This document shows positions 34,097 to 40,380 of a stretch of DNA of 64,000 nucleotides, piece by piece. The DNA is taken from assembly GCA_015075325.1 (NCBI GenBank), contig JABTUP010000002.1, positions 62,001-126,000 on the forward strand, written 5' to 3'. This DNA is from Flavobacteriales bacterium. GTDB taxonomy: Bacteria > Bacteroidota > Bacteroidia > Flavobacteriales_E > Vicingaceae. Made by a program: the position numbers and the translations under genes. The notes under the pieces are model-generated. The model saw only the letters and a list, made by a program, of their open reading frames with translations, made no database searches and was not told where the DNA came from. Each line of letters starts with the position of its first letter. Within the stretch, counting starts at the first letter, position 1.

Positions 34097-34151
34097 TGTA
34101 ATAAAAGCTATTACAAAGTTGTTGTGAACTAATTCTAAAAAATTAGAACAT

Positions 34152-34168
34152 TATATTTGCTATATTTG
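34152..34168 (+). promoter_or_regulatory. Two tandem TATATTTG elements upstream of the four-gene operon
   Basis: TATATTTG occurs at 34152-34159 and again at 34161-34168, both exact TAnnTTTG matches, 54-70 bases before the ATG at 34222. They are the best promoter candidates for the putative defence operon. A clear -33 box was not located, so which copy is used is unknown. Confidence 0.45.
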
Positions 34169-34221: not shown

Positions 34222-36198
34222 ATGCAAATTACACACAAATTAGATGATTTTCTATTTACCATTTTCCCTGAACTGACAGGGGGGGGTAATGAGCTTATAA
34301 TCAATGTATTAGAGAGATTTTACACTTATGGCCCTTACAAGCCAAAAGTTTCAATTGAAGACAATTGGGTAAAAATTGAAATAGACACACCAACAATAAT
34401 TTCACAAGACGGTGACTACAAAAAAGTTATTGCACTTTGTGAAAAAGGAAAATATTCTGAAGCAAAACCAATCTTAAAAAATCTCATAAGCAAGAATCCG
34501 ACAATATCAGAGTATCACCGAATAATGGGACAAATACTATCTGATGAAGGTGACCAAGAAGAAGCTATAAATTGCTTGATTGATGCTTTACGTTGGGATT
34601 CAAAAAACGGTTGGGCATTGTTAATGATGGGGAACATCTTTGCTAAGTTCAAAGATGATGTTCCTACTGCAATGAAGTATTATGACCAAGCACTTGTTGC
34701 AAATCCCAATGACAATATTACGATCAATAATATTGGTGCAAACTTAATGCAACAAGGCAAACTGGAAGAAGCCAAAAAATACTTTTGGGAAGCAATCAGG
34801 ATTAATGACAAATATCCAAACACACATTTTGCACTAGGAATGATTGCGGAAATGGAAGCAGACTTTCAGTCTGCTTTTTACAGCACAATTCAGGCAATAA
34901 AATTGAATAAGAACAAGGATGTTCTATATCAAAACTCGGTAAGACAAGCATTCGAAATTGCAAAAAAGATAATTGCAACAGATGCTGGAAAGAAGATTTA
35001 TCGTGAATACAGGCACAAACTAGAATTTGAAGGAGACAGAAGAATTGATATAGTTCAAGACGAAGAAATACCAACCGCTGCAAAGTTTGAATTTGCAGAG
35101 AATTACGAAAGAGACGTTCATATTGTAAGATATAAATCAAGCTATCCAGCAGTAGAACATCTTATCATGCACGAGTTAGTTCATCTTGATTTTGTAATTC
35201 AAGCAAGAAAGGACGATTTAAATCAATTGTTCATATCCAATCAAAGTCATAAGACACAATTTATAACAGGACTTGAGCCTACAATCAAGAAATTTAATAA
35301 AATGGGTATTCCTGAAAAGTCAATTGCAGAATACTGCTCAAACCTTTTCGATGGAATGAATCGTCAAATCTTTAACACTCCAATTGACTTATTTATAGAG
35401 CAATTTTTATTTAATGAATTTCCCGATTTACGACCTTATCAGTTTTTATCTCTTTACGCCATGTTACAAGAAAGTTTGCAGGCAGTAACAGACAAGAAGA
35501 TAGTTGAACTTTCACCAAAAGAAATTATTTCAAAAAGCAAAGTATACAACCTTGTAAATGCTCTTCAGTTCAAAGAACTTTTCGGATTTGATTTTATCAA
35601 GGAGTTTAATGCTACACCAATTGAGTTAAAACAAGCTAATGACTTTTACAATGAGTATTTACAATACAAAGATGACAAAGAACCAGCCGAAGAATATGAA
35701 TTAGTACTACATTGGGCAGAAGACCTAAAACTAGATAAAAATTTTGAACTCGTAAACGAAAAAGAATTCAGAACAAAGCGAACAAACATCGACAGTATTT
35801 TATCCGAAATAGAAAAAGATCCTTACGACTTAGAATCCAAAGGCCTTTATAAGAAGAGGGAAATGGAGAAATTTCAAAAGTCACAAGAAAGTATCGGAAC
35901 CAACATGGCTGTTGTTATGTTAATGGTTGATGCACTCCAGTTTTTTGAAGGAATGCCAAAAGAAGAAATCAAGAAAATAGCTTTTGAAATTGCTATACAA
36001 GGCACACAAGGCTACAGACCTGAAAAAGACAATTACAATATCAGCTCAATTAAAGGGAAAACCTTTTCAGGCTACCACATTTTAGCCTATTACTATGTTA
36101 GTTGGGCTTTGGCAATTCCCGAGATGCTTTCACAATTACAACTGCCATATGATGATGAATACAAACTGGCTTTAACCATGCATAAACCTAACAAGTAA
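34222..36198 (+). CDS. TPR protein with HExxH metallopeptidase motif (defence operon gene 1)
   Basis: A 658-residue soluble protein without signal peptide. Residues about 75-235 hold four to five TPR units (NPTISEYHRIMGQILSDEGD, NGWALLMMGNIFAKFKDDVP, NDNITINNIGANLMQQGKLE, YPNTHFALGMIAEMEADFQS). A predicted peptidase-like part follows with H317-E318-L-V-H321 in LIMHELVHLDFV, a zinc-binding HExxH motif; a third ligand may be a Glu in TPIDLFIEQFLFNEFPDLRP, but that is a guess. The C-terminal third is helical and unassigned. A G8 tract (34279-34286) encodes residues 20-22. Its stop overlaps the MazG-like start by one base. It could sense infection and cleave a partner, or be a toxic protease; function is inferred only from fold and context. 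Confidence 0.8.
   Translation: MQITHKLDDFLFTIFPELTGGGNELIINVLERFYTYGPYKPKVSIEDNWVKIEIDTPTIISQDGDYKKVIALCEKGKYSEAKPILKNLISKNPTISEYHRIMGQILSDEGDQEEAINCLIDALRWDSKNGWALLMMGNIFAKFKDDVPTAMKYYDQALVANPNDNITINNIGANLMQQGKLEEAKKYFWEAIRINDKYPNTHFALGMIAEMEADFQSAFYSTIQAIKLNKNKDVLYQNSVRQAFEIAKKIIATDAGKKIYREYRHKLEFEGDRRIDIVQDEEIPTAAKFEFAENYERDVHIVRYKSSYPAVEHLIMHELVHLDFVIQARKDDLNQLFISNQSHKTQFITGLEPTIKKFNKMGIPEKSIAEYCSNLFDGMNRQIFNTPIDLFIEQFLFNEFPDLRPYQFLSLYAMLQESLQAVTDKKIVELSPKEIISKSKVYNLVNALQFKELFGFDFIKEFNATPIELKQANDFYNEYLQYKDDKEPAEEYELVLHWAEDLKLDKNFELVNEKEFRTKRTNIDSILSEIEKDPYDLESKGLYKKREMEKFQKSQESIGTNMAVVMLMVDALQFFEGMPKEEIKKIAFEIAIQGTQGYRPEKDNYNISSIKGKTFSGYHILAYYYVSWALAIPEMLSQLQLPYDDEYKLALTMHKPNK
34279..34286 (+). 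repeat. G8 homopolymer near the 5' end of the operon's first gene
   Basis: Eight Gs in an AT-rich gene, after codon 19. With eight the frame is open. With seven the reading becomes GTA ATG AGC TTA TAA, a stop within five codons; with nine TAA follows directly. This is the layout of a slipped-strand switch. Whether the length varies in the population is not known. Confidence 0.9.
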
Positions 36199-36527
36199 TG
36201 AAGGAAAACAAAGAAATAATTGAAGCACTTTTAAAATTCGGAAATGAAAGAGATTGGGAGCAATTCCACAATCCAAAAGATTTAGCACTTGCAATTAATG
36301 TTGAAGCGGGAGAATTGCTTGAACTATTTTTATGGAAAAGCCCTGAAGAAGCAAACAAGGAGAAAGTAAAAGAAGAATTAGCCGACATTTTTGCTTTTGC
36401 TTTTCTTTTGGCTGAAAAGTATCACTTTAATGTGAAAGAAATTGTGCTTGAGAAAATTCAACAGAACGCTAAGAAATACCCCGTTGAAAAGGCAAAAGGG
36501 ACAGCAAAAAAATATAATGAGTTATGA
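36198..36527 (+). CDS. MazG-like nucleotide pyrophosphohydrolase (defence operon gene 2)
   Basis: A 109-residue all-alpha NTP pyrophosphatase of the MazG/dCTPase-like superfamily. The metal-binding motif pair ExxE...ExxD is seen as E36-x-x-E39 (EAGELLELFLW) and E60-x-x-D63 (KEELADIFAFAFLLAEKY). Members hydrolyse (d)NTPs or modified nucleotides to monophosphates, and MazG proteins can also act on (p)ppGpp. The start overlaps the upstream stop by one base (TAATG) and its end overlaps the McrB-like gene by four (ATGA), so it is an integral part of the operon. In a defence setting it may lower nucleotide pools or remove modified phage nucleotides; that is inference. Confidence 0.9.
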   Translation: MKENKEIIEALLKFGNERDWEQFHNPKDLALAINVEAGELLELFLWKSPEEANKEKVKEELADIFAFAFLLAEKYHFNVKEIVLEKIQQNAKKYPVEKAKGTAKKYNEL

Positions 36528-38152
36528 ACGAACAAGTATTAATATATACAATTTCAGAGTCAGCAAGTTCTAATGCAGAGCTATTATTTAATGGCGAAAA
36601 ATACTTTTACTGGAACAATGAAAAATTCAAGAATCTAGTAGTTGGGGATTATGTTTTTATTGTCAATCGAACACATAAGTATGTTCTTTTTACAAAATTT
36701 GACAAAGAAAATATCCAAACCAGAATTAATAGGACAACAAACAAAACAGCATTCAGTGATGAAGGGATAAGTTTTGAAGTTGATGGAACAGAGTCTAACA
36801 ACTCTCCTTGGGATGTTTTTGTTAGGTTTTCAATTATTAATAAATTAATGATTCCTGATAATTGGGAATGGACAAATCTCGGTGCTGGTGGAACTACATA
36901 TTTAAATGGGGATAGAATAAATACAAGTGCATATGAAAACAGACTAAAGAATATCAGTCAATTATTACAATTATCTCAAGACGAGACTATAACTCAAATA
37001 CTCGAAAATTGTAGACTAAACTTTAATGGAAGCACAACTAAGCCCACACCTATAAAACCAATTCAAAAAACCAAAGAAAACAAACAGGATGACATGAATA
37101 TACTAACAGCCATAAAAACTAAACCTTTTATTCTTTTAGCCGGAATATCGGGAACTGGAAAGTCAAGATTGGTAAGAACTCTTGCCTACAAAACTTGCAG
37201 CAAGGATGAATTAAGAAACGACCCTAAAAAGCCTGGGAATTTTGAATTAATTCCTGTGCGACCAAATTGGCATGACTCATCGGAACTCATGGGATACGTG
37301 AGTAGAATCAATGGCGAAAAATATATCACAACTTCTTTTTTGAAATTCATAGCAAAAGCATGGAAACATACAGATGTGCCGTTTTTTCTTTGTCTTGACG
37401 AAATGAATCTTGCCCCTGTAGAGCAATACTTTGCAGAGTATTTAAGCATCATTGAAACACGACAAGTCAAAAATAGGGTGCTAGTCACCGATTATATCAT
37501 ATCAAAAGAAAGTTTTGAAAATCAAAATCTCTATACCCAGTTATTAAAAGATTTAGAACTTGACGAAAGAGAATTCTCAGAAGGTATTAGTATTCCAAGC
37601 AATCTTATTGTCATCGGAACTGTAAACATGGACGAAACGACCCATTCTTTTAGTAGAAAAGTTCTTGATAGAGCAATGACTTTTGAAATGAATAATGTTG
37701 ATCTATCTGCTGGCTTAGATTTACAAAAAAACGATTGGAGTTATCCTGAGTCTTTTATTTCTAAAGAAGATGTAATTGGAATGTATACATCAGGTGCTGA
37801 AGTGTATTCTAAAACATTTAAGGAGAAAGATGAAGTAATCAGTTTCCTAACAAAAATAAATACTGAACTTGAAGGAACGCCTTTCAAAATTGCATATCGT
37901 GTTAGAGATGAGTTTTTAATATACTGTTATTACGCAAGTTTGAACGCATCAACAAATTGGTTGACAAATGCTTTAGATGAAATGGCAAGTATGAAAATAT
38001 TATCAAGAATTGAAGGAGATGAAACTAAAACTGGTAATGTCCTTAAAAACCTACAAAAGATACTCCATGCCGACTATAAAAAGTCAAATGCCAAACTGAA
38101 AGAAATGGAGTCACGCCTTCAGTCAAACGGATACACATCATTCTGGTCATAA
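36524..38152 (+). CDS. McrB-like AAA+ NTPase with EVE/PUA-like N-terminus (defence operon gene 3)
   Basis: A 542-residue protein. The N-terminal 120 residues (FYWNNEKFKNLVVGDYVFIV and on) look like an EVE/PUA-type fold that could bind a modified base; this is a weak, by-eye call. The AAA+ domain of the McrB type starts at Walker A G207-x-SGTGKS (K213), Walker B is LCLDEMNLAPVE with D292/E293, and the McrB signature N368-M-D370 (GTVNMDETTHSFSRKVLDRA) follows. McrB-type motors use GTP to drive DNA translocation towards their McrC nuclease partner. The next gene, overlapping by one base, encodes such a partner. Linkage to MazG and a TPR-metallopeptidase is unusual. Confidence 0.9.
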   Translation: MNEQVLIYTISESASSNAELLFNGEKYFYWNNEKFKNLVVGDYVFIVNRTHKYVLFTKFDKENIQTRINRTTNKTAFSDEGISFEVDGTESNNSPWDVFVRFSIINKLMIPDNWEWTNLGAGGTTYLNGDRINTSAYENRLKNISQLLQLSQDETITQILENCRLNFNGSTTKPTPIKPIQKTKENKQDDMNILTAIKTKPFILLAGISGTGKSRLVRTLAYKTCSKDELRNDPKKPGNFELIPVRPNWHDSSELMGYVSRINGEKYITTSFLKFIAKAWKHTDVPFFLCLDEMNLAPVEQYFAEYLSIIETRQVKNRVLVTDYIISKESFENQNLYTQLLKDLELDEREFSEGISIPSNLIVIGTVNMDETTHSFSRKVLDRAMTFEMNNVDLSAGLDLQKNDWSYPESFISKEDVIGMYTSGAEVYSKTFKEKDEVISFLTKINTELEGTPFKIAYRVRDEFLIYCYYASLNASTNWLTNALDEMASMKILSRIEGDETKTGNVLKNLQKILHADYKKSNAKLKEMESRLQSNGYTSFWS

Positions 38153-40380
38153 TGCAAGTAATAAAAGTAGAACATACAGACTTTACGTTGGTTGTTGAAT
38201 GCAATAACCTTGTACCTACTTTTGAAAAAGCAAGAAAAAAACAATCTGAAATTTATAATGCAACAACTTACTCGGTTAATCAAGGGGAAATTTCCATTTA
38301 TAATTTTGAATCGCACCAATTAGAAAAACTTTCAACTGTTAAAACCTATCCATTAATATTTGAAAACAAGGATTATTTTGTAGGTATCACCTTCAAAGAT
38401 AAAACTTCAATAAAATCGCCTTATATTTATTCAAAATTAAAAGAAGTAGAAGAGAAATTTTTCTATCGTGAAGAATTAGGATTCCTTGCAGGAACAATAA
38501 ACTTTGGCAATGATCTTGGTAAGAGCAATTTAATCTTAAAATACTTAAAGGATAATTCACTTCAGGAAATCAACTTTGAATTTGAAGTATTTCCCACCAA
38601 ACTAAATTACAAGAGCGATTACGAAAAAATAGTTTCAGATATCGAAAAGGAATATCCTTATCTCGTTCTTGACTTTTTAAAGAAAACATTCACGACTTTT
38701 AAAACTGGAAACTCACCTAACACTGATTTAATTTGGTGGCAAGTATTTGGTGGTCTTTATAAAGATTTCATTAATTCCTCAAAATTTATTTTAAATAAAC
38801 CACACAGCCGAATTATAAGGCAAACTAAATATGTAAAGGCTGATAGAATTCAGAAGTGGACTTCTGCTTTAGAAGAAGAATATTCTCAGTTTAACACATT
38901 TCCCAATAAGAATTACCGTTCGGAATATAAAACACTAAGCACAAACACATCCGAAAATCGTTTTTTTAAACATGCAGTTTTTCAAACACTTAGGCGGTAT
39001 AAAAAGGTAAAATCATTTGTAGATAGGCGTTTTTCAAATTCAATAAGCGATAATTTCAAATCTGAACTTTCCAACATTGAGAAACAACTTGAAATAATTT
39101 CTGTAAATCCGTTTTTCAGAACTATAGACGACTTCCAAGGCATCAAACAAGAATCGCTTGTTTTGCAGAAAGCAACTGGTTACAGCACAATCTATAAATC
39201 ATGGATAATGATGAATAGTGGTCTGAAATTTTTAGATAGCATACAGAAAATTGAACTTAAAAATATCGCTGATCTTTATCAGATTTGGTGTTTCTTGGAA
39301 ATAAAGAATGTTTTACAAAAACTATTAGGCAAAGAAAATCCTGATGATATTGATTTAGCAGAAATCCAAATAGACGACTTTGTTTTCAAAATCGAACGTG
39401 GTGTAAAATCAAAAGTCTCTTTTAATAAATCTGATGGAGAAATCATTGACTTGTTTCATGACTTTTCTTATGACACTTCTGAAAGCCAACTTGTAAAGTC
39501 GTTTACTGTTAACCAACGACCTGATATTGTTCTCAGAATTACAAAAAATGATTTGAAGGAAAATTATGTTCTCACCTATTTATATGATGCAAAATACAGA
39601 TTAGCTTCTGACGAGAAGGATGGATCTCCAGACCTTCCAACAGAAGATTCCATTAATCAAATGCACCGATATAGAGATGCGATTTACTATGTAAACAAAG
39701 ACAAATCTAAACCTGAAAAGGAAGTTATCGGGGCATACATACTTTTCCCTGGTTCAGGTGAAATCGAAACTATCAAAAAACTCGACTATTACAAATCGAT
39801 TGAATCAGTAAACATTGGTGCTTTTCCATTAAGACCTAATGATTATTCAAACAGAACGCTTTTAGAAGACCATTTAAGAACAATAATCGGACTTGACACA
39901 GAAACAATATTAAATGACGTTTCACCTCAGAAACTAACAACTTATGAAAATCATAATCCAGAAGTTCTCATTGGCATTGTAAATAAAGGAAATCAAACTG
40001 AATACTTCGAAAAAGAAAATAATCTTTTCTATCACACAGGAAAAGTTAAGCCTGCCAAACTGAAAGACGAAGACTCTGGATATGTAAAAATTAAAACTGA
40101 CATTAAATATTTTGCTCCATACTTCTCAGGTAAAGGAGTAAAAGAATATTACGATATTGTTGACTTTAGAATAATACCAAGAAATGAAGTATTTCCTACT
40201 GGTCATTCATTGGATAAACCTTATGATAAAAGTGACAGGCTTATTATTACTCTTGGCAAAAAACATATTATCAAAGAAAATCGATATTTCACATGCTCTA
40301 TAACTGTTTACAGATATACTACTCTGAAAAATATAAGAAATCCAAAAGAAAATAAGATTGAAGTTTTAAAAGTAAGTTAG
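38152..40380 (+). CDS. McrC-like DUF2357 / PD-(D/E)xK nuclease (defence operon gene 4)
   Basis: A 742-residue protein. The N-terminal half is a DUF2357 domain: GTINFGNDLGKSNLILKYL and FEVFPTKLNYKSDYEKIVSD are hallmarks. Helical linkers follow, then a PD-(D/E)xK nuclease core at about 450-490 with D458 (NQRPDIVLRI) and D479-A-K481 (YLYDAKYRL). After that comes INQMHRYRDAIYY, typical of McrC-like nucleases, and a C-terminal extension of about 170 residues (600-742) with EVE/PUA- or SH3-like strands of unknown role. It should cut DNA when driven by the McrB-like partner just upstream. Length is above that of classical McrC (about 350), as expected for the DUF2357 subfamily. Confidence 0.88.
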   Translation: MQVIKVEHTDFTLVVECNNLVPTFEKARKKQSEIYNATTYSVNQGEISIYNFESHQLEKLSTVKTYPLIFENKDYFVGITFKDKTSIKSPYIYSKLKEVEEKFFYREELGFLAGTINFGNDLGKSNLILKYLKDNSLQEINFEFEVFPTKLNYKSDYEKIVSDIEKEYPYLVLDFLKKTFTTFKTGNSPNTDLIWWQVFGGLYKDFINSSKFILNKPHSRIIRQTKYVKADRIQKWTSALEEEYSQFNTFPNKNYRSEYKTLSTNTSENRFFKHAVFQTLRRYKKVKSFVDRRFSNSISDNFKSELSNIEKQLEIISVNPFFRTIDDFQGIKQESLVLQKATGYSTIYKSWIMMNSGLKFLDSIQKIELKNIADLYQIWCFLEIKNVLQKLLGKENPDDIDLAEIQIDDFVFKIERGVKSKVSFNKSDGEIIDLFHDFSYDTSESQLVKSFTVNQRPDIVLRITKNDLKENYVLTYLYDAKYRLASDEKDGSPDLPTEDSINQMHRYRDAIYYVNKDKSKPEKEVIGAYILFPGSGEIETIKKLDYYKSIESVNIGAFPLRPNDYSNRTLLEDHLRTIIGLDTETILNDVSPQKLTTYENHNPEVLIGIVNKGNQTEYFEKENNLFYHTGKVKPAKLKDEDSGYVKIKTDIKYFAPYFSGKGVKEYYDIVDFRIIPRNEVFPTGHSLDKPYDKSDRLIITLGKKHIIKENRYFTCSITVYRYTTLKNIRNPKENKIEVLKVS

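Follow-up and report, generated by a model that had tools for sequence, protein, structure and literature searches.

The window analysed here is a 64,000-nucleotide stretch of DNA from a Flavobacteriales bacterium. In it, a run of eight G residues (G8) lies near the start of the first gene of a four-gene operon. Comparison of sequences makes it likely, at odds of roughly four in five, that this tract is a slipped-strand contingency switch; no reads were available, and switching within a population has not been shown. In the proposed mechanism, replication slippage would add or remove one G and so bring a stop codon into frame immediately behind the tract or a few codons further on. The 658-residue product of the gene, which contains tetratricopeptide (TPR) repeats and an HExxH motif, would thereby be made (ON) or absent (OFF), reversibly. 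The inference is that the defence module behind the gene, here composed of MazG-like and McrB/McrC-like proteins, requires this protein or is licensed by it. OFF cells would lose defence through the missing protein, and possibly also through polarity on the overlapping genes, and would be spared the cost of defence; ON cells in the same population would stay protected. That OFF means defence off remains an inference, as do the role of the TPR protein and the direction of its effect. The features are as follows.

34152-34159 and 34161-34168, plus strand: two TATATTTG boxes, putative operon promoter (by eye), resembling the Bacteroidota -7 element
34222..36198, plus strand: first gene, 658 aa, with N-terminal cap, TPR repeats and HExxH zincin-like domain (open reading frame, profiles, alignment, model)
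34279..34286, plus strand: G8 tract, putative frame switch; ON at G8 and G11, OFF at G7 and G9; site conserved in 30 homologous loci
36198..36527, plus strand: MazG-like nucleotide pyrophosphohydrolase, 109 aa (Pfam MazG-like, 1.1e-20)
36524..38152, plus strand: McrB-like AAA NTPase, 542 aa (Pfam AAA_5; PADLOC PDC-M26A, 4.2e-45)
38152..40380, plus strand: McrC-like protein, 742 aa, DUF2357 plus PD-(D/E)XK nuclease (Pfam DUF2357, 4.2e-47; PDDEXK_7, 7.6e-36)

The tract and the first gene

The G8 run begins 57 nt from the ATG at 34222 and forms codons 20-22 (GGG GGG GGT), so that sequence and open reading frame agree with the initial annotation. The early stop that it had foreseen on loss or gain of one G was reproduced by rewriting the tract in silico: G7 yields a 25-residue product and G9 a 22-residue product; G8 and G11 yield the full 658 or 659 residues. 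The gene therefore has a homopolymer of at least 7 in its 5' coding region, where a change of one base truncates the protein.

Two other roles for this region were considered and rejected. A translation start downstream of the tract would have refuted the switch, as the initial annotation pointed out. However, the alignment of homologues begins at residue 1 and shows a conserved MxIxH..DDFLF..FP start preceding the tract; after the ATG, no further in-frame start codon occurs before codon 102. A σ70-like promoter across the tract (CTGACA-N17-TATAAT, 34273-34301) has no more total matches than shuffled sequences, and its hexamers are not conserved in homologues; moreover, promoters of Bacteroidota differ from this type. 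The consensus of the Bacteroidota -7 element, TAnnTTTG, is what the TATATTTG boxes resemble. Just 5' of these boxes stands an operator-like inverted repeat, TTCTAA-AAAA-TTAGAA (34131-34147).

The TPR repeats span residues 60-250 or so (Pfam; Z about 18 to known TPRs). The remainder (residues 250-658) contains the HExxH motif at 317-321 (H317, E318, H321) together with E393, all invariant in 42 sequences. In the predicted structure (mean pLDDT 88.6) the tract maps to a loop between N-terminal helices 9-14 and 23-33, a location where changes of length are tolerated. Metallopeptidase activity is only inferred, from the HExxH motif and weak structural matches of the C-terminal domain (Z 3.5-4.5), with zincins among the best: Spartan, MATCAP, selecase, LTA4 hydrolase, and BlaR1. 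A Pfam search of the protein gave no peptidase match; a Foldseek search of the C-terminal domain alone against the PDB returned nothing with E under 0.001; and sequence and fold searches of the PDB with the whole protein found TPR proteins only. No relative was found in the viral contigs searched, and the plasmids searched held two homologues of about 40% identity.

ON and OFF alleles in homologous loci

A profile scan of species-representative bacterial genomes identified 80 homologous loci, 40-90% identical. The sample holds one genome per species, and several loci come from metagenome bins. The tract was absent from the first set of homologues (25 or so, at most 59% identical). Those distant homologues, and the tail of the G-run distribution in the genome that contains the window, had favoured a reading of the tract as chance; closer homologues overturned it. 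In 30 of the 80 loci, from many Bacteroidota families, 7-13 Gs occupy the homologous site, and in nearly every case TAA or some other stop-forming context comes next. Absence of the tract from homologues, which the initial annotation had named as grounds for refutation, thus does not hold: the run stands at the same codons.

Among the 31 tract-bearing copies, the window included, 17 are ON and 14 are OFF, the latter shifted by +1 or -1. After the tract the frame stays open for at least 634 codons in 12 of the 14 OFF copies; of the other two, one has an extra frameshift and one reaches the contig end. By comparison, every scorable homologue without a tract is ON (44 ON, 0 OFF; Fisher p 4.7e-7). 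This p value, like that of the codon test described below, overstates the strength of the result because related copies are counted as independent. Some OFF calls could reflect assembly errors in metagenome bins.

Opposite states are found in close relatives. L201 (G13, ON) and L206 (G8, OFF) share 87% DNA identity, as do L198 (G8, ON) and L203 (G10, OFF). Both states also occur among cultured strains: Pedobacter puniceum HX-22-1 is G10 and OFF, and Flavobacterium sp. RSP15 is G11 and ON. The nearest tract-bearing pairs are about 11% apart in DNA, and no strains of the same species were compared. The comparison of related genomes, with G7-G13 at one site in mixed and mostly otherwise intact ON and OFF copies, nonetheless supports the phase-variation switch first proposed from the window alone. 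It matches features that define a contingency locus, namely length variation between alleles at a conserved site, with both ON and mostly intact OFF alleles.

Mixed frames also bear on whether slippage occurs in expression and not in replication. RNA polymerase or ribosome slippage could yield some full-length protein from OFF copies, with the tract tuning its level. Homopolymers can be slippery for both enzymes (poly-A/T, PMC3711429), and OFF copies do remain intact. However, the tract lengths fall in all three frames, and a programmed frameshift needs one fixed frame. With 17 copies in frame and the others at +1 or -1, the gene does not qualify as a programmed frameshift gene, and recoding is very unlikely as the main function of the tract.

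Two genomes offer variations on the pattern. One Flavobacterium sp. UBA5153 bin contains three paralogous TPR copies (L208, L233, L239): one is G11 and ON with a helicase; one is G11 and OFF with type III restriction; and one is tract-less. In L224 (Flavipsychrobacter) the usual tract is absent, and a G8 lies at 470-477, codons 39-41 of the same gene, possibly as an independent switch.

Chance, constraint and phylogeny

Could a G-run arise by mutational equilibrium in a tolerant loop, without any switch, and the OFF alleles be ordinary pseudogenes? Taken by itself, the genome that contains the window permits this. Over 3.32 Mb and both strands it has 38 G6, eight G7, one G8, two G9, and one G13 runs. 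The single G8 is the tract in the first gene of the operon, and a geometric tail drawn from the G7/G6 ratio predicts about 1.7; the three runs of at least 9 compare with 0.45 expected. Runs of at least 8 Gs are present in 39 of the 41 genomes searched (relatives and this one), and among 30 run sites read some lie in housekeeping genes (for example mraY, bioB, and shikimate kinase). The length of the loop also varies among homologues. In this genome alone the tract is within chance expectation; it is far beyond chance only once homologues are compared.

The comparison then turns strongly against chance. The same site carries the tract in 30 of 80 loci, and only four other G or C runs of at least 8 occur across 897 kb of homologous loci (one being the G8 of L224). 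Outside the tract, the 31 tract-bearing genes have no further G or C run of at least 6. GGG makes up 37 of the 53 glycine codons inside the tract and 55 of the 365 in the rest of these genes. In two of 12 source genomes the TPR-gene tract is the only run of G8 or longer, and the cultured isolate Pedobacter puniceum has just one such run besides it. Finally, OFF copies are otherwise intact and under purifying selection: median dN/dS after the tract is 0.09 for ON-ON, 0.12 for OFF-ON, and 0.14 for OFF-OFF pairs. These low values in all classes indicate that OFF copies are not decaying pseudogenes. A chance origin is therefore strongly disfavoured. A poly-glycine requirement of the protein was rejected as well, since loop length and residues vary and the codons are biased to GGG.

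On a tree of the post-tract protein, tract presence is clustered (10 changes, versus 23.5 in shuffles) but does not form one clade. L197 and L199, which are closest to the window copy (89-90% amino acid identity), are without a tract, so the tract can be lost. A single gain with several losses and an exchange of 5' ends can both account for the distribution, and the choice between them is undecided.

Mismatch repair and expected rates

The genome encodes a complete MutS. The match to MutL is in two halves, each at the end of a different contig, so that MutL is apparently encoded but split. In wild-type meningococcus, OFF-to-ON frequencies are 2.4e-8 for G8 and 1.2e-7 for G10; without MutL, the G8 frequency is 9.3e-6 (PMC4085013). 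Because mismatch repair genes are present, and meningococcal G8 rarely switches when repair works, the window copy may switch slowly. If meningococcal rates transfer, the window G8 would be among the short, slowly switching tracts, with more frequent switching expected of relatives that have G9-G10.

Operon structure and module swapping

Behind the TPR gene, most loci have a MazG-like gene on the same strand and then an effector module. The assignment of the operon to defence is an inference from its gene families; no phage phenotype has been shown. In the window, the McrB-like NTPase motif reads GTVNMDET by eye, which is the NxD form described for one McrB branch (PMC11090510), and the fusion of DUF2357 to a PD-(D/E)XK nuclease meets the criterion for McrC. 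Restriction of modified DNA and use of GTP by this putative pair are suggested by sequence families only.

The four window genes are as tightly coupled as the initial annotation described: TPR/MazG overlap by 1 nt (TAATG), MazG/McrB by 4 nt, and McrB/McrC by 1 nt. Its suggestion that OFF could be polar is plausible from these overlaps, but does not extend to all relatives. In L200, L204, L209, and L233 a gap of 49-328 nt separates the TPR gene from the next gene; the one effect that all share is therefore absence of the first protein. Where genes do overlap, polarity could add to the effect of OFF.

The modules behind tract-bearing TPR genes are diverse. (Effector classes are based on profile matches to representatives and on BLAST to those.) They comprise McrB with DUF2357/PDDEXK (window, L202, L203, L209, L212, L215, and in part L204); Schlafen-group-3 helicase of one kind (L198, L205-L208, L219, L220, L222, L223, L236, L243) and of a second kind (L227, L257, L258); type I restriction (L200, and HsdR alone named for L218); type III restriction (L233, probably L211); and ResIII helicase (L221). 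TPR copies that are 85-90% identical precede different modules: helicase in L198, McrBC in L203, and type I restriction in L200. When the window is aligned with L198, identity drops beyond position 36500 or so, where the MazG gene ends; the TPR-MazG pair thus moves as a unit.

Such swapping, behind TPR copies up to 90% identical, would also be expected if the G-run were mainly a recombination joint for exchanging 5' ends or modules, and the roughly 10 changes in tract presence on the tree are compatible with that idea. However, identity breaks downstream of the gene (about 36500 for L198) and upstream of it, not at the tract. A recombination joint is accordingly disfavoured to the point of being barely credible.

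The direction of the effect is less secure. The TPR/HExxH protein might instead restrain the downstream effector, in which case slippage to OFF would turn defence ON or be toxic. A zincin-like domain could process a partner, and the gene often has MazG-like and XRE-type regulator genes as neighbours. Against restraint, the 14 OFF copies out of 31 mostly stand in operons whose effectors are intact, so loss is not lethal; the commonness of OFF alleles beside intact effector genes makes it unlikely that the TPR protein is an indispensable antidote. Restraint is thus improbable, though it survives if OFF is polar. A licensing or required role for the protein remains the preferred reading.

Several further arrangements were observed. 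A small XRE-like helix-turn-helix gene, of two types, lies right before the TPR gene in L197, L198, L200, L201, and L202, and in the same position in L206, L215, L221, L242, and L258; it is absent in the window. In L250 and L206, the second gene of the operon belongs to the endonuclease/exonuclease/phosphatase family and lies at or next to the place of the MazG gene. In Balneolaceae (L067:5146-11863 and L256), a tract-less TPR/HExxH gene lies immediately 5' of genes that we take to be BrxA/BrxB/BrxC-like, from recognised resemblance and without a profile test.

Relation to known systems

It is well established that polyG tracts can drive phase variation and that restriction systems can be phase-variable (PMC11868660, PMC12707154, PMC8437040). 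The tract resembles known polyG contingency loci in its in-frame G7-G13 coding run, its one-base change between ON and OFF, and its intact OFF alleles (PMC8437040, PMC4085013). Those loci chiefly concern surface structures, whereas the present ones are intracellular defence operons of environmental Bacteroidota, and the window host has mutS and apparently mutL. Type I and III phasevarions likewise place a defence locus under homopolymer slippage (PMC12707154). There, however, the switched gene lies within the restriction-modification system and is typically a methyltransferase; here it is a separate TPR/HExxH gene common to unrelated modules. With no methyltransferase among the four operon genes, the window operon is not a phasevarion.

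The pairing of an McrB-like AAA NTPase with a DUF2357 plus PD-(D/E)XK protein is shared with McrBC type IV restriction; the TPR/HExxH and MazG-like genes in front, and the G-tract, are not. The text of an McrBC census mentions neither phase variation nor MazG nor metallopeptidase (PMC11090510). McrBC of C. jejuni protects from phage, and the available part of that report does not describe phase variation of McrBC itself (PMC8713573). Recombinase-driven phase variation in Bacteroides (capsules, S-layers, restriction genes) also concerns Bacteroidota and is in some cases phage-protective (PMC11868660, PMC12548429), but proceeds by DNA inversion, not homopolymer slippage. A search of open-access literature on phase variation with McrBC, BREX, TPR/MazG, or Flavobacterium polyG did not find this locus described, which is weak evidence. 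The mechanism is thus known, and its placement on a gene common to defence operons appears to be undescribed.

A switch on an accessory gene that heads several unrelated defence modules across Bacteroidota implies that a single tract of this simple kind may make immunity random in many bacteria of the environment. In that case, the defence genes present in a genome would overstate the defence that is active, since 14 of the 31 assembled tract copies are OFF. The locus would also allow bet-hedging of costly immunity to be tested directly in harmless culturable strains, and it supplies a sequence marker countable in reads that already exist, namely the G-run around codon 19-23 of the TPR gene.

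Other long G-runs in the genome

The three runs longer than the G8 lie outside the operon. The longest G-run of the genome, a G13 (L063:3469-3481; C12:57468-57480), is intergenic, in promoter position for a small downstream lipoprotein gene that by eye looks META/HslJ-like. A G9 (L064:3171-3179; C62:22170-22178) has a cas2-like gene on one side and, on the other, a CRISPR array with repeats ending in AATTTCTACTATTGTAGAT, like those of Cas12a systems; if it is part of a CRISPR leader, such a run could alter expression of the array. The other G9 (L062:2254-2262, on C4) is likewise in promoter position, just upstream of an outer-membrane receptor-like gene.
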